A stretch of 64,000 bases of DNA, taken from Betaproteobacteria bacterium (GTDB taxonomy: Bacteria; Pseudomonadota; Gammaproteobacteria; Burkholderiales; Rhodocyclaceae). Position 1 is the first letter of the stretch. Each line of letters opens with the position of its first letter. The notes under the pieces were generated by a model. The model searched no databases and was not told the DNA's origin. It saw only the letters and a list, made by a program, of their open reading frames with translations. The translations under genes were made by a program, and so were the position numbers. This document shows positions 41,428 to 56,671 of this stretch, in pieces. Location of the stretch: positions 124,001 to 188,000 of the forward strand of contig WRIU01000001.1 in assembly GCA_009782565.1 (NCBI GenBank), in the 5' to 3' direction.

Positions 41428-41638
41428 GGAGGCGATTGTAGCGACTCGTGCCTGGAGGCGCGACATGGAGTACCTTCCCCATAGTAGGCGTGAATTTTTA
41501 CATTTATACAGCTTTACCGATGGACTACTTTTGTTGGACGGTATGACGGTGCATATATACGACACATGTGCCCTCGTGAAGAAGTCGCCAAAGGAGGAAA
41601 AAGTAAGACTTTGTCATAATCAGGAGATGGGGATAAAA

Positions 41639-42760
41639 ATGAGCAATACCCGCGATCTGGTCATGCTGGTGGATGACAACCTTGCCAACCTGATGGTTGG
41701 CAAGGAGGCTCTGTCCGATACTTATAGCGTGATAACAGTCCCTTCAGCGTCAAAAATGTTTGATCTGCTGACAAGCTATACGCCGAAGCTGATTTTGTTG
41801 GATATTGATATGCCTGAGATGAGTGGATATGAGGCAATCAAAATTCTGAAAAACAATCCGAAGATGAAAAATATTCCGGTTATTTTTCTTACATCCATGA
41901 ATGATTCTGATAGCGAACTTCAAGGATTGAATTTGGGTGCTGTTGATTATATAGGTAAACCATTTTCAGCGCCTCTTTTGAAAAAACGTGTCGAAGTACA
42001 TATATTGGTAGAGAAACAGAAAAGATCGCTACAAGATTACAACAAAAATTTGCAGGAAATGGTAGCGAACAAAACACAAACTATACTTAAATTACAGAAT
42101 AAGGTTTTGCAGGCAATGGCAGAACTAGTGGAAGGACGAGATAACATGACAGGGAATCATATTGAACGAACGCAGCATTGTCTGGGGATATTATTGTCTA
42201 ACATGTTTGCGATGGGGGTCTACCAGGAAGAAACAAATGGGTGGGATATCGGTCTATTACTTCAGTCTTCTTTGCTGCATGATGTCGGGAAAATTGCTAT
42301 CCATGACAGTATTCTCAAAAAGCCTGGAAAATTGACGAAAGAAGAATTCGATGAAATGAAAAAACATGTTATGTATGGCGTCAAATTTATAGAAAAACTG
42401 GAAGAAGACCAAGAGGATAGCCTTTTTTTACAATATGCCAAAATTTTTATCAAATACCATCACGAAAGATGGGACGGTTCTGGTTATCCAGATAATCTTG
42501 TTGGTATGGAAATTCCATTACTGGGACGACTGATGGCAATAGTTGATGTCTACGAAGCTCTGACTTCTAAGCGTTGTTACAAATCGGCAATTGACCATAA
42601 AACAGCGGTAAATATTATTTTGCAAGGTAGAGGGACAGATTTTGATCCAGTTTTGATTGATTTGTTTGAACAGTGCTCAGAACAATTACCATTCTCCATG
42701 TTATATAATAAAAAATCAAATAATGAGAGTTTTTCTCTGCTTGATGTCGTTTCATTATGA
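41639..42760 (+). CDS. Response regulator with HD-GYP domain
   Basis: The 373-residue protein has a receiver domain (residues 6-125: VDDN at 11-14, phosphoacceptor Asp55 in LLDIDMPEMSG, and the Thr/Lys switch residues in LTSMND and GKPF). A coiled-coil linker follows, then an HD-GYP c-di-GMP phosphodiesterase domain: His214-Asp215 in LLHDVGKIAIHD, and HHERWDGSGYPDNL near 275-287. GGGGATAAAA precedes ATG 41639. The frame is open further upstream, but those codons are probably not translated. Codon use is AT-rich, unlike the pyrD and purD neighbours. It is first in an operon with the two next genes. Confidence 0.9.
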   Translation: MSNTRDLVMLVDDNLANLMVGKEALSDTYSVITVPSASKMFDLLTSYTPKLILLDIDMPEMSGYEAIKILKNNPKMKNIPVIFLTSMNDSDSELQGLNLGAVDYIGKPFSAPLLKKRVEVHILVEKQKRSLQDYNKNLQEMVANKTQTILKLQNKVLQAMAELVEGRDNMTGNHIERTQHCLGILLSNMFAMGVYQEETNGWDIGLLLQSSLLHDVGKIAIHDSILKKPGKLTKEEFDEMKKHVMYGVKFIEKLEEDQEDSLFLQYAKIFIKYHHERWDGSGYPDNLVGMEIPLLGRLMAIVDVYEALTSKRCYKSAIDHKTAVNIILQGRGTDFDPVLIDLFEQCSEQLPFSMLYNKKSNNESFSLLDVVSL

Positions 42761-42792
42761 TTTAATTAAACAAAATGAACGGAGAGCCTTTA

Positions 42793-43791
42793 ATGCCAGT
42801 ATCAATTTTCCAAACTAGGCACTTTTTTATAATAAATCCTATATGTTTCGACAGTCACCTGAAAATGGAGGCAATGATCACAGGAATACATCATTTTTTC
42901 AATGCTTTTAACAATTCGCCGGAGCAGACACCGCCGGACTATGCTGTTCATGTCTCGCGTTTTCCGCGTGATGCCATTTGTGCGATTCAGCGGTTTGCTG
43001 GTGCCGTTCCATCCGGCAACCCACTCAGGGTATATGCGGTGGGGGGCAGTGGGATTTTATTCGATTGCCTGAATGGTGTTGTTGGGTTGCCGAATGTGGA
43101 ATTAGGTATTATACCCTATGGAAAAAAGATTGATTTCTGTCGTGTTTTTGGAGAAGCGAATAAAGCGGCCTTCAATTCATTGGAAGCACAAGTTTACGCA
43201 CCTTCCGTTCCAATGGATGCGCTGTATTGCGGTAGCAATTACGCTCTGAGTCACTGCTTGATTGGCTTTGAGGCGTTGTGCCGTAGTAACACAGAGAGAG
43301 TACGTAAACAGCGTACTTTCATGAATCGGTGCATGTTAAATTTTTCAAAATTCTTGAACTTCAATTCTTTGTACTTTATGGGAGCTATCAATTCTGAAAT
43401 ACTCAGGCAAAACTACCGTATCTGGGTAGACGACGAAAATTTGAGTGGGGGACATGCTTTTATCAATATTGCTAACAGTCCGTATTATGCTAGAAATAAA
43501 AAGAATATTATCCTGGAGGCTGATCCAACTGATGGTAGGTTAGATGTATTGTTAAGTGATGAAATCAATTTATTAGAGAGTTATAATGTATTGAATAAAT
43601 ATGTAAATGGAAGTTATGAAAAATATCCACATCTCTTTACATATCGGCGCGCGAAAAAAGTTTTTTTGACATCCAATAGTCCATTGATACTCGATCTGGA
43701 CGGAGAGGTTTTTTATGATAAATACATTTCTGTTGAAATTAAGCCGGGGGTAGTGAGAATCATTGATCCGACTCAGGTGCGTCAGGAGTGA
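42793..43791 (+). CDS. Diacylglycerol-kinase-fold protein with degenerate catalytic motifs
   Basis: The 332-residue protein aligns in outline with YegS/DgkB lipid kinases. Equivalent motifs are FFIINP for the first strand, and [15 protein letters not shown] where catalytic enzymes have GGDGT...[20 protein letters not shown] stands where they have PxGTGNDFA, and [10 protein letters not shown] is the C-terminal DGE motif. Asp, Thr and the GTGND loop, which bind ATP and metal, are changed. It may be an inactive sensor of a lipid or nucleotide. GGAGAG 6 bp before ATG 42793 decides that start over 42775. The gene overlaps the kinase leader. It is AT-rich like its neighbours. Confidence 0.65.
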
Positions 43792-43793
43792 AA

Positions 43794-46700
43794 ATGAATT
43801 TCAAAAATAACTCTGAAAACGACTATTTTCGTTGGTCGCTGATGTTGGCAGTGTTGGGTAATATTAGTGCCATTTCTTTGTATTTGATTTTTGAAGTAAA
43901 ATCCAATTATTTTTTAATCTTATTTTCGATGCTTTGTATTTTTATATTGATGCTGCTCATCATTATTCCTACAATGCGGCGAGAGCGAAAAAGATTCAGT
44001 GGACGGCCTGAGTTAGGCTATATTCAGGCTGCAAATATTTTTGCTTTTTTCGGGGTCGTGGTTTTTACTAATATTAAAGTTGCGGGATATATTGAGGCTG
44101 GACAGTTTAATGATGCAATTATTGCGGCATTTTTATGTTTGCTGCTTGTTGTTATGATTGCGCTTTTAGTAACTTATATCAAAAATATTTCATTTTTATC
44201 TTGTCTGATGCCACTGCTTATTTTTCTGGCGTTTACCTTTCATAGTGGATATGTTGGTGGAGATCATTATTATTTTAGTGTGTGCTTGTATATATGTGGA
44301 GTTTGTGCGATATTTTGCCAATATAAACCCTTGTTGTGTTTAACTATTTTTGTAAATTTTACTATTTTGATATTAATACTCACAGGAGTGCCATTGGTTG
44401 GAAATATAGCTTATTTTGATGAAATGATAGTTCTATGGGGAAGTGCTGTTAATGTTATGGTTATAATCTTGTTGTTAGTCCGTTTTTCTTCTGATAAAAG
44501 TATGCGATCATCCAGGGCGGAAAATTCTTTTTCTGCGTTAATGACAACAACGCCTAATCTTGTTGCCTTGGTGGATGAGATGAATCGCGTAACCTATATC
44601 AGCGAACCTATGGCAAAACTGGCTCATATTGAAAATACTGAGATGGCTGTTGGCCGTCCATTAGTCGATCTCTTTCATCGAATGAATATGAAACTAATGA
44701 TAGGTGATATTTTTGACAAATCAGGCTCTTATGATAATACAGTTGAGGTACATGAGTATGGTAAGTCATGGTATTTCAAAATCGTTTCCAGTCAATTTAT
44801 GGAAAATTATTATGGCGATGCCAGCCAAAAACTGGAAGGAAGATTCATTGATATCAGCGATGTAACCTCCTTAGTTGAAGCTAGATTGGAAGCAGAACAA
44901 GCCAATCGGTCAAAGAGTATGTTTCTGGCACGAATGTCCCATGAAATTCGTACTCCGATGAATGCAATTATTGGAATGAGTGAATTGATTTTACGCCAAA
45001 AAAGCGTATCAAATACTGTGCGTTCCTATGCGGCAGATGTTAAACAGGCAGGAACCAATTTATTGGCTATTATCAATGATATTCTTGATTTTTCTAAGAT
45101 AGAGTCCGGTAAATTGGAGCTTGTTACGACAGAATATGAGTTGGGTTCTTTGTTGAATGATGTGACGACTATCACCAAGATGCGTTTGTTAGAAAAACCA
45201 GTACGATTTTCTATTTATGTTGATAGTCATTTGCCAGGTAAAATGATTGGTGATGAAGCACGCGTCCGTCAGATATTGTTAAATCTTCTGTCTAATTCCG
45301 TGAAGTATACAAAAGAAGGACATATTATTCTCTACATAAATGGTAAGACAACGGAGAATGGTAAATACGAAGTTCAGTGCAAGATAGAGGACACAGGGAT
45401 TGGCATCAAAAAAGAAGATATGAAAAACTTGTTCGATGATTTTGTACAGGTCAACTCTATCAATAACAAAGGTATAGAAGGAACAGGGTTGGGGCTTTCA
45501 ATTTCCCATAATCTCAGTAAACTGATGGGAGGGGGCATTAAGGTTGAAAGTGATTATGGCAAGGGGGCAACGTTTACTGTTACGTTCTTGCAGGATGTTT
45601 GTGAATATCATCGTTTTGCGGAAGTGATCGAGCCGGAGTCAAAAAACGTCATACTGTACGAACCGCATCGAAAATATGCGGATAGTGTTTTCATGTCTAT
45701 TGAAAATCTGGGTGTATTTTGTGTGCGAGTGCACTCTTTTGAAGACTTTTCCGATGAACTGTCGAAGCGTAAGTACAATTTTATTTTTCTGCCTCATTGC
45801 CTGATAGATAAAACTGCCGCCGAAGCACAGCGACTTGCTCCAGAAGCCATGATGGTGATTTTTGACGCGGAGTCTGGAGAGCATCTTCCCATTCCTCGTG
45901 CTCGTGCGCTAGTCATGCCAGCTTATGCTCCTACCATTGCTAACATCCTGAATGGCTTTTCAGACGAGAAACACTATGTTCGCGCCGCAGTGGATGGAAT
46001 CAGTTTCATTTTACCGGACGCGAAAGTCCTGATCGTGGATGACCTTGCCGTTAATCTACGTGTGGCACAGGGGTTAATGGCCGTCTATGAGATGCAGGTC
46101 GACTGTGCTGAAAGTGGGCATGAAGCCATCGAAAGGCTGCAAACAAAACACTATGACATTATTTTCATGGATCACATGATGCCGGCTATGGATGGCATTG
46201 AAGCAACTGCTGCTATTCGTGCATTGAATGGTGAATATTTTAAAAACGTGCCCATCGTTGCATTGACGGCCAATGCCATCTCCGGGATACGTGAAATGTT
46301 CCTTGAAAACGGCTTTGATGACTTTCTTTCTAAACCAATAGAAACGGCAAAATTAAATGAAATTCTGGAAAAATGGATTTCAAAGGAAAAACGCCAACCT
46401 GTGATGCCGGGGGCAAACAATTCAAAGAACCAGAGTGCCGCCGTGAGCTTGCCGGATATCGAAGGCGTGGATGTTTCTGCGGGTCTGTCGCGCGTTGGCG
46501 GTTCTGAAGAGCGTTATTTGAGCCTCCTTGAAGTTTTCCTGAATGATGTGAAACATCGTCTTGCCTTACTGGAAAAACCGACGTCAGATACCTTGAAAGC
46601 GTTTACAACGCATGTTCATGCTCTGAAAAGTGCATTGGCCAATATCGGTGCACTGGCGCTGTCAGAATCGTCAGGCTTGTTGGAAGCTGCCGGGCATCGG

Positions 46701-47033
46701 GGGGACACATCGTTCATTTATGAACATCTGGACAATTTCCGTACAGGGTTATTTTCCCTGAGCGCACAAATAGACGAAGCGATTACGAAAGAATATCCCC
46801 GCGAAACAATGTTGAAAGATGGGGAAAGAACGAATGATTCGCATTGGGATCAGGAAATTATCCGGTTGAAGGCAGCCTTGGAGACAGGAGACCTCGTTGG
46901 CATGGATGAGTCCATGGCGATCTTGCGATCCTTGCCTTTGTTGTCGGATCGGCGAGCCTTGATCTCGAAAGTGGCTGGATTGATCCTGGTCTCAGAATTC
47001 GGGCAAGCCTTGAGAGCGATCGAGGAGGCCTGA
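43794..47033 (+). CDS. Membrane hybrid histidine kinase with receiver and HPt domains
   Basis: This is a 1079-residue protein: about seven to eight membrane helices (residues 15-230), a PAS-like segment (about 245-355), and HisKA with phospho-His 383 in [14 protein letters not shown]. The HATPase domain follows ([36 protein letters not shown]). Next come a receiver-like domain without acidic pocket (about 615-725), a true receiver ([12 protein letters not shown], Asp near 793 in [14 protein letters not shown]-type SKPIE) and an HPt domain with [14 protein letters not shown] (about 940). This allows a full internal phosphorelay, presumably to the REC-HD-GYP protein. AGGAG 5 bp before ATG 43794 favours it over GTG 43788. 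Confidence 0.9.
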
Positions 47034-51467: not shown

Positions 51468-52298
51468 TTAGCGGCGAATCGTATTGCGCCGACGGCGAAC
51501 TACGAAACCGACCATGCCCAGACCTGCCAGCAGCATCGCGTAGGTTTCGGGCTCAGGAACCGCCGTGATCGAAATGCCGAACTGAATCGTAGTCTGGGCA
51601 GACTCTGCTGTCTTGAAGCCGTAGCAGGAAGTCGTCATTTTCCCACCGCTGATTTCGCTGCATATGTCCGCGCTAAACTGCGTGATGGCGTCGGGGCCAC
51701 TGGTCTGGAAGTAGTTGAACTGGTAGGTCTGACCATCGTATGTGAACGTATCGTAGATCGTAGGCATTGCGACAAACGCGAAAAGGTCGTCGTCGCAGTT
51801 ACCCCAGGCGCAGGTCCCACCGACGTTGGGCGTTTCGTAGAAGAATATCTTGAAGTCCTTCGTCAAGGTTTCTATGGGAAGCGCGTCGTTATACCAATCC
51901 CTCAGATCGACGGATACGCTCAACGTGGCTTCCAGGAGGTGATGGTAGGTCGCGTTGATCTCGTTATTGGTGTGCCTGAATATATTGACCTGGTCCACGG
52001 TTCCGCCGGACTTGATCCATCCATCACGATGCGGTTGGATGATTTTCAGGCTGCTACGTGCGTTGTTCGGGTTATAACCGATAATCGAGTCATCGACGCC
52101 GCCTTTATACCCCCAACTCAGGACGTCATCCGTGAACTTGGTAGATGAGTTTATGTTTGTGCTGGTGTCGAAAACGGCATCAGTCCACTTCATGTTGATG
52201 TCGTATTTCCAGTATTCGACAACAGCGGCTTGCGAAACCGAAGCCGCACAAGACAGAACGCTGGCAGCGAACAACTTGCAAATAGCTTTCTTGTTCAT
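51468..52298 (-). CDS. PEP-CTERM exported protein, THxN-like, paralogue 1
   Basis: The 276-residue protein has a signal peptide (KLFAASVLSCAASVSQA) and a C-terminal sorting tail: VPEPETYAMLLAGLG, membrane helix, then RRRR. That tail is recognised and cut by an exosortase/EpsH-type system. The body has VLSWGYKGG and NIFRHTNNEINATYHH, corresponding to the LSWG and T-H-x-N landmarks of THxN-family PEP-CTERM proteins (here R-H-T-N), plus Cys pairs CAWGNCDDD and CYGF. The exosortase is not in the window. The 13-nt leader GGAAGGTTTCACC before the ATG is identical to that of paralogue 2. Confidence 0.85.
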   Translation of the reverse strand: MNKKAICKLFAASVLSCAASVSQAAVVEYWKYDINMKWTDAVFDTSTNINSSTKFTDDVLSWGYKGGVDDSIIGYNPNNARSSLKIIQPHRDGWIKSGGTVDQVNIFRHTNNEINATYHHLLEATLSVSVDLRDWYNDALPIETLTKDFKIFFYETPNVGGTCAWGNCDDDLFAFVAMPTIYDTFTYDGQTYQFNYFQTSGPDAITQFSADICSEISGGKMTTSCYGFKTAESAQTTIQFGISITAVPEPETYAMLLAGLGMVGFVVRRRRNTIRR

Positions 52299-52508
52299 GG
52301 TGAAACCTTCCTCTAGGTTGCAGTCTGAAAAATTACGTATAACCACTATTAGCAAAAACCGAGCCTATTTGCAGGATATTGATTTTATTAAATAAAATTA
52401 TGTAGTGGCTTTAATGTGTAAAAAAAAGCGACGATTTTTTGTGTTTTTACCTATTTTTAGGCGAGTTGGGCCGCTATGAGTTCCAGCGTGAAGGGAAGTG
52501 GGCAGGAA

Positions 52509-52594: not shown

Positions 52595-53443
52595 TCAGCG
52601 GCGAATCGCGTTGCGCCGACGGCGAGCAACGACACCGATCATGCCCAAGCCTGCCAACAGCATCGCGTAAGTTTCAGGCTCCGGAACCGCCGTCGCCGTC
52701 ATCGAGAAAGCGAAATTCACTGTGGTAGCGGCTGCTTCGGGCGTTGTGAAGCCATAGCATGCAAAACCCCCCGGTACGCCAGCCTCATTACAGGCAGCCG
52801 CCGAGAGTGGCTTGAGGAAATTGGAGGTTTCAAAGTAGTTGAACGTGTACTCGTACCCATTGAAGACGAATGAGTCAGAGAAATCGTTGAGCGTGGGTGA
52901 GACGGTAAGAATCGCGAAAATATCGTCGTCGCACAAACCCCATGCACACTGTTCTCCGGTGTTGGGCGTTTCCTTGAAATACACCTCGAAGGTTCGCTGA
53001 AGATTGAATACGTTAGCGGAGCCGGGCAGCCCCAGATTGACCGTTACAGCCAACTGAGCGTGTGCGAGGGTTGGGTAAGTGTCATAGATGGGGCTGTTGT
53101 AGTGCGTAAACATATTGGCTTCAACCGAGACGCCATCGGTGTTGATCGTTCCATGAGCCTGCGGAACAGAAATTTCCAAGGCGCTACGGTTATAGCCGCT
53201 ATTCATGTCGACGTTTTTGTAGTTGGCACCAGTCTTGCCCCAACTCAACACGGTTTTGCTCTTGGCTCCGTCTCCGACATAACCAGGTAATGGGTTTGTA
53301 GCCGCATTGAACACAACGGAGTCGACGACCCACTCCAAGTTAAGCGTGTACTCCCAAGTATCGACAGAAGCTGCTTGCGACGCTGAAGCTGCAAACGCCA
53401 AGGCACTGGTGGCGATCAACTTGCTGATTGTTCCTCTTTTCAT
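52595..53443 (-). CDS. PEP-CTERM exported protein, THxN family, paralogue 2
   Basis: The 282-residue protein has the same design as paralogue 1: signal peptide (KLIATSALAFAASASQA), VLSWGKTGANYK, the diagnostic NMFTHYNSPIYD with T-H-Y-N, KETPNTGEQCAWGLCDDDIF, and the PEP-CTERM tail VPEPETYAMLLAGLGMIGVV plus RRRR. Sequence identity between the two is moderate in the body and high in the tail, so they are an old tandem duplication. Such proteins are often secreted to the cell surface or the extracellular matrix. The specific role is unknown. The 144-bp region before ruvA (53444-53587) is AT-rich and contains its promoter. Confidence 0.88.
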   Translation of the reverse strand: MKRGTISKLIATSALAFAASASQAASVDTWEYTLNLEWVVDSVVFNAATNPLPGYVGDGAKSKTVLSWGKTGANYKNVDMNSGYNRSALEISVPQAHGTINTDGVSVEANMFTHYNSPIYDTYPTLAHAQLAVTVNLGLPGSANVFNLQRTFEVYFKETPNTGEQCAWGLCDDDIFAILTVSPTLNDFSDSFVFNGYEYTFNYFETSNFLKPLSAAACNEAGVPGGFACYGFTTPEAAATTVNFAFSMTATAVPEPETYAMLLAGLGMIGVVARRRRNAIRR

Positions 53444-54250: not shown

Positions 54251-56419
54251 CTACTGCCATTGAGTGAAGGACAGGTTTTCGTTCAGCCAGTTCTCCAGTT
54301 CCTCCGGCGGCAGTGGGGGGGAGAACAGGTTGCCCTGAACGATCTGGTAGCCCTGAGCCTTGAGCAGATTACGCTGTGTCGAGTGTTCGACGCCCTCGGC
54401 GACAACCAGTAGCCCCATGCTGTCGCCGATGTGCATGATGGCGTTGGTCAGCGCCCGCGTGGATCGGTCGCGACCGAGGTCGTGCACGAAGGATTGATCG
54501 AGTTTGAGTTCATTGACGGGCAAATTTCGCAAGTAGGCGAGGCTGGAATAGCCGGTTCCGAAATCGTCGATCGACAGGCGCACGCCGAGGGCGCGAATTT
54601 CGTTGATGGTTCGTATTACGTTTGGATTGGAATCCATCAACACGCCTTCGGTGATCTCGATCAGGATGTCATTGGGAAGCAGTCCATGCGAACGGAGTAT
54701 GGCTTCGAGATATTGCGGCAGTTTCAGGTTGTGAAAATCGGTGGGTGACAGATTGACCGATATGGACGGGATAGTGAAGCCATGCTGGCGCCATTGTGCA
54801 AGCTGGCGGCAGGCTTCGTTCAATACCCACTGGCTCAGGTAAGTCATTAAGCCGCTTTTTTCGGCCAACGGGATGAAGCGGGACGGGGCAACATAGCCAA
54901 GCTGAGGGTCGTTCCAGCGCACGAGAGCTTCGATGCCATGTAACTGATGGGTTTCGATATTGATCTGGGGCTGGTAGTAGAGCCTGAGTTGGTTGGTTTC
55001 GAGCGCCCCGCGCAGGGACGATTCGAGTGTAAAGCGCTCCTTGGCGAGCAGGTTCAACTGGCCGCTGAAAAAGCTGAAACAGCCCCGGCCTTTTTGTTTG
55101 GCCTGGTACATGGCCATGTCGGCTGCATGAATCAGGGTGTCTATGTCGTTCCCGTTTTCCGGGAACAGGCTGATGCCGATGCTGGCTGCCGGGGACAGTG
55201 GAATTTCGCCGATCTGGCATGGTGCGGAGAGTACGGCGAGCAGACGGCCGGCGAGGTCGGTGGCGTGTACGCTGTCGCATTGGGTGAGGACGATGACGAA
55301 CTCGTCCCCCGAATAACGGCAAAGGATGTCGACTTCGCGTATCGCTTCGCGCAGGCGCTCGGCGACGATACGCAGCAGGGCGTCTCCGGCGGGATGCCCA
55401 AGAGAATCATTGACCTGCTTGAAACGGTCGACATCGAGGAACAGTACCGCCAGTTGCGTATTGTCGCGGATGGCTTGTGCAATGGCTTGGTTGGCCTGGA
55501 TGTGCAACATGCTGCGGTTGGGCAGGCTGGTGAGATTGTCGAAAAAGGCCAGATGATGGATACGCGCCCGCGATTGAGCCTGTTCCATTGCCAACGTGCA
55601 CAGAGAGGTCGCAACCTCGGCCAGTTGCGTGTGCAATTTGTTCGGCCGTCGGCATACGCGGTAGTAGAAGGCCAGGACGCCGACCACATGGCCGTCGCGC
55701 GCCTTGACCGGAACCGCCCAGCACGCCTTGTAGCCCAGTTCCAGCGTTTCATGTTTAGCGACCGTCCAGCCGGGATCGTTCTCGATGTCCCTGACGAGCA
55801 CGGGTTCGCCATGAAAAGCGGCGAGCCCAAGGCAGGAAGACTGGGAACCGGGATCGATGCCGTCGGTTTGGCTTATGTATTCGGTGGGGAAATCCGGCGC
55901 GGCCAGCGTGTGTAAACGGCCGTCGTTGCTAATTTGGGCAATAGTGACGGAAATTTCCGGCGCAATGCGGCTGATTTCCTGGCAGAGCAGGTTTAGCACC
56001 TCTTGCAGCGACTCCGTTTTCGCCATGATCTGAAGGACATGGTAGCGCAGCGCCTTATGTACCTTATTGAGCGTAATGTTTCGGGCAGTGATCAGGTACA
56101 GGGTTTGAGTAGTGATTTCAATACGTGAAACGGATATTTCAGCCCACACCCGCGTCTGATTTGGGCGCTCAATGGGCAATTCCACATGATGGCCGACGAG
56201 AAGGCCGATGCCAGACTGACCGGGGGATTGGGTTTGTTGATCGTTTTTAAGGGGAGGCATCAGAAGAGAGATATTGGCTCCCTGTACGGTTTCCCGGCTA
56301 CGTCCCCATAACCGCTCGGCATTGCTATTGAAAAAAACGATGTCGTCGTCCTTATTGACCACAATAATGGCGTTTTCCGCCTGTTCGAGAATTTGAGGAT
56401 AAAACTGTGAAATCGACAT
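54251..56419 (-). CDS. PAS-GAF-GGDEF-EAL c-di-GMP enzyme, DosP-like
   Basis: This is a 722-residue soluble protein. PAS (1-118: PQILEQAENAIIVVNKDDDI, FFNSNAERLWGRSRETVQG) resembles E. coli DosP, but the region that would carry the haem-ligand His has no suitable residue. GAF follows at about 150-290. The GGDEF domain (300-460) has RYSGDEF as its signature, with S in place of the first G. The EAL domain (470-715) is well preserved: GIEALVRW, SVNLSPTDF, EITEGVLM, DDFGTGYSSLAYL, KLDQSFV and VAEGVE. It probably hydrolyses c-di-GMP, with synthesis uncertain. ATG 56419 begins the PAS domain. Confidence 0.9.
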   Translation of the reverse strand: MSISQFYPQILEQAENAIIVVNKDDDIVFFNSNAERLWGRSRETVQGANISLLMPPLKNDQQTQSPGQSGIGLLVGHHVELPIERPNQTRVWAEISVSRIEITTQTLYLITARNITLNKVHKALRYHVLQIMAKTESLQEVLNLLCQEISRIAPEISVTIAQISNDGRLHTLAAPDFPTEYISQTDGIDPGSQSSCLGLAAFHGEPVLVRDIENDPGWTVAKHETLELGYKACWAVPVKARDGHVVGVLAFYYRVCRRPNKLHTQLAEVATSLCTLAMEQAQSRARIHHLAFFDNLTSLPNRSMLHIQANQAIAQAIRDNTQLAVLFLDVDRFKQVNDSLGHPAGDALLRIVAERLREAIREVDILCRYSGDEFVIVLTQCDSVHATDLAGRLLAVLSAPCQIGEIPLSPAASIGISLFPENGNDIDTLIHAADMAMYQAKQKGRGCFSFFSGQLNLLAKERFTLESSLRGALETNQLRLYYQPQINIETHQLHGIEALVRWNDPQLGYVAPSRFIPLAEKSGLMTYLSQWVLNEACRQLAQWRQHGFTIPSISVNLSPTDFHNLKLPQYLEAILRSHGLLPNDILIEITEGVLMDSNPNVIRTINEIRALGVRLSIDDFGTGYSSLAYLRNLPVNELKLDQSFVHDLGRDRSTRALTNAIMHIGDSMGLLVVAEGVEHSTQRNLLKAQGYQIVQGNLFSPPLPPEELENWLNENLSFTQWQ

Positions 56420-56671
56420 ATAAGCTGCTGCCAACAAACATTTTAGATGGCAGCAGATTCGAATGGTTCCCGTTCTCAAACTGCTGCCGAGGCTCAACTG
56501 CTAGTATCCTCTTTTTTATTTTGTCAAGCAGTGACGATGTACCTGAAGAAAGATAGATTTTGAGTCGATCCGGGATTGAGGTCAGGGATTTCTCGATTTA
56601 ATCCTTTCGTTACGTCTTCGGCGTAAAGGATATACTCTATGGATGTTAAAAACTGCTAAATAAGAGGTCAC

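Follow-up and report, generated by a model that had tools for sequence, protein, structure and literature searches.

A YegS/DgkB-fold gene recurrently paired with six-transmembrane-helix PAS sensor kinases in a betaproteobacterial signalling operon and its relatives

Why would a protein with the fold of a lipid kinase be encoded between an HD-GYP response regulator and a hybrid histidine kinase? The question is raised by three packed plus-strand genes at 41639..47033 of a 64,000-nucleotide stretch from a Betaproteobacteria bacterium (contig WRIU01000001.1); this whole stretch is called the window below. The first gene (41639..42760) encodes a REC-HD-GYP response regulator of 373 residues, P0001, the second (42775..43791) a degenerate YegS/DgkB-fold protein of 338 residues, P0002, and the third (43794..47033) a membrane hybrid histidine kinase of 1079 residues, P0003, which contains a transmembrane (TM) region followed by PAS, HisKA, HATPase_c, REC and HPt. 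An earlier note on this DNA had described the same packing and the same domains, including a REC and an HPt of the kinase's own; the open reading frames are present, and Pfam and motif positions agree with that description. The trio is real, conserved and under selection. As judged from sequence, the lipid-kinase-fold gene and the TM-PAS sensor stay together while the kinase type and the output change.

A conserved pair of genes

The family of P0002 was studied in 78 rows: the window, loci L003-L023 and loci fetched from L054 up to L133. Outside these rows are the genus loci L025-L040 as such, L134-L148, unfetched Treponematales places, near-identical copies and two L073 fragments with a stop reported inside. 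In 66 of the 77 members other than the window a protein with the six-helix TM domain of P0003 is encoded within 600 bases of the family gene on the same strand, downstream in 61 and upstream in 5; in one of the loci with an upstream partner, L108, a REC gene lies in between. The same scan around 6 ordinary lipid kinases found a TM-domain protein near none of them. The 66 partner kinases are not of one type: 46 carry a HisKA motif, 16 match the CheA-like part of the L095 kinase and 4, mostly cut, are undecided. An HD-GYP gene is recognised by motif in the loci of at least 23 of the 77 members, which is a floor, as many loci are short and the P0001 tblastn matches in L011 and L014 were missed by the motif. 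The earlier note had proposed a neighbourhood search for the trio in other genomes. Such a search does find linkage, and the trio recurs; the conserved unit, however, is the YegS-fold gene with the six-TM-PAS kinase.

Four layouts of this unit can be distinguished. The first is that of the window, with REC-HD-GYP, YegS-fold and TM-PAS hybrid kinase genes in this order. In the second, a CheY-like REC gene and a CheX gene precede the YegS-fold gene and a TM-PAS kinase with a sub-threshold Hpt and a CheA-like HATPase; the L095 operon reads REC, CheX, YegS-fold and a kinase with Hpt (17.3 bits, under the cut-off) and HATPase_c. The third has a large membrane protein (HAMP, and an HPt-like tail by eye) between the REC-HD-GYP gene and the YegS-fold and TM hybrid kinase genes, and is resembled by G080 (L094), which has one more membrane-protein gene. 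In the fourth a HisKA-HATPase_c-REC-YegS-fold fusion, which also matches Cache below threshold, stands ahead of the gene of a TM-PAS hybrid kinase. This fusion is found at L102:2180-5560 by Pfam and at L103:4006-7326 by motifs and profile; in both the YegS-fold domain is C-terminal to the hybrid kinase and has GGEG for GGDG.

The two partners are also inherited together. A TM profile, built from proteins adjoining family members and then run genome-wide, was searched against 241 Treponematales genomes: 51 have the TM domain, 53 the family and 50 both, with the TM domain only in G398 and the family only in G208, G219 and G334. The Fisher p-value of this co-occurrence, 6.7e-47, ignores kinship between genomes and is used descriptively. 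There are 77 TM places in these genomes, of which one (G151:C279) is another stretch of a protein already counted. A family match precedes 57 of the places by 27-248 bases, and 4 more have one within 5 kb. Further, the identity matrices of the two proteins over 64 pairs correlate with r 0.885, and none of 2000 permutations exceeded 0.112. Such a correlation is expected, because any operon inherited as a unit gives it.

Fold, motifs and selection of the middle protein

The two-domain DAGK/YegS fold is present in P0002 and matches DgkB solved with ADP and Mg. In Pfam, YegS_C is matched over its cut-off (1.5e-13), and DAGK_cat (4.6e-5) scores 23.4 bits against a cut-off of 23.6, or 25.6 in the genome-wide search; TIGR00147 of NCBIfam scores 59.4 against a cut-off of 118.65. 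The true start of the protein may be the in-frame ATG at 42793, which is preceded by GGAG and gives 332 residues and the 32-bp gap of the earlier note. The ATG of P0003 stands 2 bp past the stop of P0002, with a GTG further upstream at 43788.

The catalytic motifs are altered in the window. P0002 has GGSG at 90-93, with Ser92 in place of the aspartate that we take to be the catalytic Asp68 of DgkB, and GKKIDF at 116-121; LDGE at 308-311 is kept. Over the family, 51 of 78 rows keep the GGDG aspartate and 27 have lost it; the ND of NDF is kept in 39, and both are kept in 31. All 6 ordinary lipid kinases have both. With these columns blanked ahead of tree building, the fewest changes on the tree are 7 for the GGDG aspartate and 10 for ND. 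In the beta rows ND is kept in 0 of 12, and the GGDG variants include GGSG in the window and L005, GGGG in L013 and GGDS in L004. The term pseudo-lipid-kinase, used in the earlier note, therefore suits the window copy with its GGSG; it does not extend to the family as a whole, where 31 members keep both scored motifs.

Other residues of the pocket are highly conserved. All 78 rows have the aspartate of the DGE motif (Asp309 of P0002). The full DGE is found in 63 of them and in 3 of 6 ordinary kinases, and the aspartate aligned with Asp148 is present in all 84 rows. Going by these residues, the catalytic pocket of the family is not abandoned. Between the window and L005, both with GGSG, the ratio of nonsynonymous to synonymous substitution rates is 0.168 for the P0002 gene, 0.114 for the HD-GYP gene and 0.223 for the kinase gene; between the window and L004 the values are 0.235, 0.172 and 0.237. 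The ratio is low despite GGSG, and the P0002 gene is therefore maintained for a role that does not need the canonical aspartate.

A housekeeping lipid kinase was considered for P0002 and rejected, as the host genome carries a separate integral DgkA. The second DAGK_cat match of the genome was set aside as well; it reads as a NAD kinase, with neighbours taken by eye for hrcA and recN.

A proposed relay and its alternatives

The two outer proteins carry the sequence motifs of a phosphorelay. In P0003, HisKA, HATPase_c and Response_reg are matched over their Pfam cut-offs, with Hpt (23.6 bits against 24.6) and PAS (19.2 against 22.6) under theirs. The phosphorelay motifs are SHEIRTP at 382, NLLSNS at 497, DTGIG at 533, GTGLGL at 563, FMDHMMP at 791 and HVHALKSA at 940, so that the HisKA His382, the REC Asp793, the HPt His942 and the N and G boxes are all present. 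A stretch between HATPase_c and REC, where Pfam gives no match, is read as a degenerate receiver. The protein has 8 hydrophobic segments. Its six-helix membrane domain (44016..44495, residues 75-234), conserved and common to the sensors adjoining YegS-fold genes, precedes a PAS domain with approximate borders at 44508..44880. In Pfam, 19 families were matched by the six-TM domain at E up to 1, none of them in more than 2 of 34 members; when its profile was searched against solved structures, calcium pumps and other proteins were matched weakly. The host genome has one TM-domain place. In the main text of a survey of CheA architectures (PMC10782961) the word 'transmembrane' is absent.

P0001 matches Response_reg at 4.5e-22 and HD_5 at 1.3e-28, and its closest solved structure is 4r8z (1.5e-37), deposited as a cyclic di-GMP (c-di-GMP) phosphodiesterase. 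The receiver aspartate (Asp55), HDxGK (HDVGK at 214) and HHExxxGxGYP (HHERWDGSGYP at 274) are all present. A genome without c-di-GMP was considered and rejected: c-di-GMP signalling is available to the host because the genome has 14 GGDEF matches, and these make c-di-GMP a plausible substrate for P0001. One of the 14 belongs to a protein of 748 residues about 7 kb from the trio (54251-56497, minus strand), in which PAS-, GAF-, GGDEF- and EAL-like stretches are seen by eye.

We propose, with about an even chance of being right, that the family provides a soluble, often degenerate YegS/DgkB-fold accessory that serves the input of a six-TM-PAS kinase, and that in the trio the relay of this kinase ends on the REC-HD-GYP protein. 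P0003 would sense through its six-helix membrane domain and PAS domain, autophosphorylate on His382 and pass the phosphate to its own REC (Asp793) and HPt (His942), from where it would reach Asp55 of P0001 and change the predicted c-di-GMP phosphodiesterase activity. P0002, rather than being a housekeeping lipid kinase, would be a soluble accessory at the kinase input side; the most likely ligand of its retained fold is a nucleotide and/or a lipid-like molecule, and it would gate the TM-PAS input by direct contact. The ancestor was probably an active kinase of the YegS/DgkB fold, and in several branches, that of the window included, the catalytic site would have decayed without loss of the gene or of its pairing. 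This model is built on the observed gene order, domains, fold, recurrent pairing, co-inheritance, motif loss and purifying selection. The physical contact, the ligand, the direction of regulation, the phosphotransfer and the phosphodiesterase activity in it are predictions from context and sequence.

A number of observations weigh against this proposal. In 11 of the 77 members no TM domain is detected within 600 bases. The contigs of L008 and L083 end there; L068 is at a contig start, and its next genes have no TM domain; the L003 kinase does not match residues 1-163 of P0003; and in L018 a TM-domain kinase overlaps the family gene and was masked by the calling of open reading frames. For the two tandem copies of L078 a TM domain lies 1.3 kb downstream in the same genome, the kinases of L129 and L094 have 6 hydrophobic segments each that the TM profile missed, and those of L106 and L091 match P0003 only from about residue 230. 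At L106:4328-7604, on a 4.06-Mb Treponematales contig, the kinase is paired with a family gene although a TM part was not detected in it; contact may therefore be made elsewhere than in the TM part. Further, for 16 of the 77 TM places the family is not matched on that strand of the contig within 5 kb. Of these, eight were fetched with flanks (L159-L166), and the family gene was found in none of the eight stretches, among which L159 alone starts within 600 bases of a contig end. All eight are TM-domain hybrid kinases, and 6 of the 7 genomes concerned carry the family elsewhere; the TM domain can therefore occur alone. Retention of both scored motifs in 31 of 78 members means that the family is not uniformly degenerate, and adjacency and co-inheritance can reflect transfer as one operon.

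Three alternatives have to be weighed against an accessory role at the kinase input. The family could be an active lipid kinase, perhaps with an unusual substrate, and the TM-PAS sensor would then bind its product, the two forming an enzyme-receptor module in which GGSG is tolerated or alters specificity. We consider this unlikely: the members with both motifs, the invariant Asp309 and Asp148, the full DGE and the match to DgkB with ADP and Mg all speak for activity, but the GGDG aspartate that all 6 ordinary kinases have is lost in 27 members, for which the tree requires at least 7 changes; serine replaces it in the window and its nearest relative; and the genome already has DgkA. More doubtful still is a role of P0002 as scaffold or modulator of phosphotransfer at the kinase core, the HPt or the HD-GYP protein rather than at the TM-PAS input. 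The L102 fusion, in which the YegS-fold domain follows REC, and the L106 gene, paired with a PAS-kinase lacking a detected TM part, would fit such a role; the kinase core, however, is swapped between HisKA and CheA-like types and the TM-PAS part is constant.

Least probable to us is that co-transcription is all there is, with a lipid enzyme gene travelling in signalling operons without any functional tie to the kinase. The genes do appear to have moved between lineages as blocks and lone TM-domain kinases exist, but the pairing persists in four phyla and across the swap of kinase type, with fusions and short spacing.

In general, the trio looks like a variant of known two-component signalling with an extra accessory protein, its function being suggested by context and sequence. 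A bolder version we hold tentatively, with rather less than even confidence: the operons would form an undescribed three-component phosphorelay class, in which a lipid-kinase-fold protein, a dead pseudokinase in several branches, is the essential co-sensor of a six-TM-PAS module that is placed on HisKA or CheA-like kinases with HD-GYP or CheY/CheX outputs. The module would have spread between phyla and be common in termite-gut bacteria. Among the matches listed in a literature search, with subscription journals mostly outside, no signalling role for the YegS/DgkB fold was found. If true, bacterial sensor kinases would have recruited a fold of lipid metabolism as a signalling subunit, and bacteria would have a counterpart to protein pseudokinases; lipid or nucleotide state would be tied to c-di-GMP and CheY-type outputs; and there would be a handle on the ligand of a recurrent six-TM sensor domain that has no Pfam name.

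Distribution, origin and comparison with known systems

Named loci of the family number 21, of which 11 are beta (9 titled Azoarcus, 1 Betaproteobacteria, 1 Proteobacteria) and 10 belong to Bacillota (4), 'Deltaproteobacteria' (4) and Spirochaetota (2). In Treponematales the family is found in 53 of 241 genomes at E up to 1e-35, at 72 places of which the weakest has 132 bits; these genomes include two with contigs of 4,059,867 and 3,855,671 bases. At E up to 1e-50 the counts are 7 of 63 genomes in the class of G157 and 5 of 391 in that of G154; in the latter the TM domain is downstream in 4 of the 5, and the weakest, at 176 bits, shows none. G149's class has it in 7 of 46 genomes at 1e-35. There, G149 and G174 have places above 300 bits, and for the other matches the score (up to 151 bits) and the neighbours suggest ordinary lipid kinases. 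Repeated copies occur: three family genes stand in a row in one genome of G157's class (L143, G475:C373), and two in tandem in Treponematales (L078, G234:C77).

On the tree a starred split separates the family from ordinary lipid kinases, and the 12 beta rows form a starred clade. L014, from a metagenome-assembled genome (MAG) of Peptococcaceae, forms another with L016 and L065 (Treponematales), which is sister to the four 'Deltaproteobacteria' rows inside a starred group. G080, from the window's own bacterial family, is placed in the other main branch, on a long branch with group support of 89-91; taken at face value, this placement would imply that the genes were acquired separately. The tree was built quickly, and several of its branches (L123, L094, L091, L079) are long. 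Some of the placements across phyla depend on short MAG contigs, such as the 8.9 kb of L014, and misbinned short contigs could mimic part of the pattern; firmer cases are L022 (98.6-kb contig) and G219 (4.06-Mb contig).

Closer to the window, relatives of P0001 and P0002 are present in 11 of 11 named beta loci (L003-L013) and of P0003 in 10 of 11, the contig of L008 stopping after the middle gene and showing two of the three genes. The flanking pyrD, purD and rnfA all surround the trio in L003, L004 and L005, and purD is found in 5 of the 11. A search of 149 genomes of relatives found the middle gene in 16 of the 21 genomes of the genus, the own genome included, and in one other genome of the same family, G080. 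Two genomes of the order give weak matches (G147, 67 bits; G115, 50 bits), beside which no neighbours like P0001 or P0003 were found. A P0001 relative is upstream in 16 of 16 genus genomes and P0003 downstream in 14, a contig end cutting the other two. Acquisition therefore predates the split of these species.

The trio differs strongly in base composition from its surroundings. The guanine plus cytosine (GC) content is 0.378, 0.405 and 0.410 for the three genes, or about 40% overall, against 0.585 (58.5%) in the remaining window. Over stretches of 5395 bases the minimum of the window is 0.397, starting at 41465, and the lowest value that does not overlap the trio is 0.528. The comparison with the window that the earlier note had suggested thus makes the trio its most AT-rich 5.4 kb, and an average composition was not found. 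Within the P0003 gene GC varies from 0.326 in the TM part to 0.507 in the HPt and C-terminal part. Across the named beta loci, L003-L013, the GC content of the trio, or of as much of it as the contig includes, is 4.7 to 20.5 points under that of the flanks. Because all of them carry it, AT-richer than the flanks to varying degrees, the acquisition is an old one. The horizontal transfer suggested before is supported in this sense, but a specific low-GC donor is not shown, and the 4.7-20.5 point range does not support a recent transfer from one such donor. Plasmid-borne spread was also rejected: when 72,556 plasmid records were searched with P0002 by tblastn, the 2 matches were distant (23-25% identity), and for one of them, a Vescimonas record, the incomplete gene table has no adjoining kinase gene.

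Sample codes Lab288 and Nt197 (L004, L005) stand for termite species in Herve et al. 2020, and a Rhodocyclaceae clade is given among termite-gut lineages in Arora et al. 2023. The window probably belongs to that clade, and going by isolate codes the other named loci, L023 not covered, are likely to come from termites.

Elsewhere in the window, two adjoining similar-looking exported proteins (51468-52355 and 52595-53443, minus strand) have tails of the form VPEPETYAMLLAGLG...RRRR, which are presumably PEP-CTERM sorting signals.

Each protein of the trio resembles a known system. P0001 is like the REC-HD-GYP c-di-GMP phosphodiesterases (4r8z; 4mcw), with REC, HD and GYP motifs intact, and differs in having a YegS-fold gene as operon mate. 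P0003 has the HisKA-HATPase_c-REC-HPt order of hybrid kinases of the BarA/TorS type and scores 363.7 bits (2e-108) against NCBIfam BarA, whose cut-off is 890; it is under the cut-offs of both BarA and TorS and differs from them in its membrane part, where eight hydrophobic segments include a six-helix core outside any Pfam family, and in its usual YegS-fold neighbour. For the six-TM domain a comparison can be made with ImcA of Pseudomonas aeruginosa, a six-TM diguanylate cyclase regulated by IsmP. A structural role independent of kinase activity is a feature of AGK (we did not find it stated in PMC7523481). AGK in the human TIM22 complex (7cgp_B) serves mitochondrial import, unlike the signalling context of P0002. 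Compared with the soluble lipid kinases YegS and DgkB, finally, P0002 has GGSG for GGDG and IDF for NDF, and its clade is set apart by its place in sensor-kinase operons.

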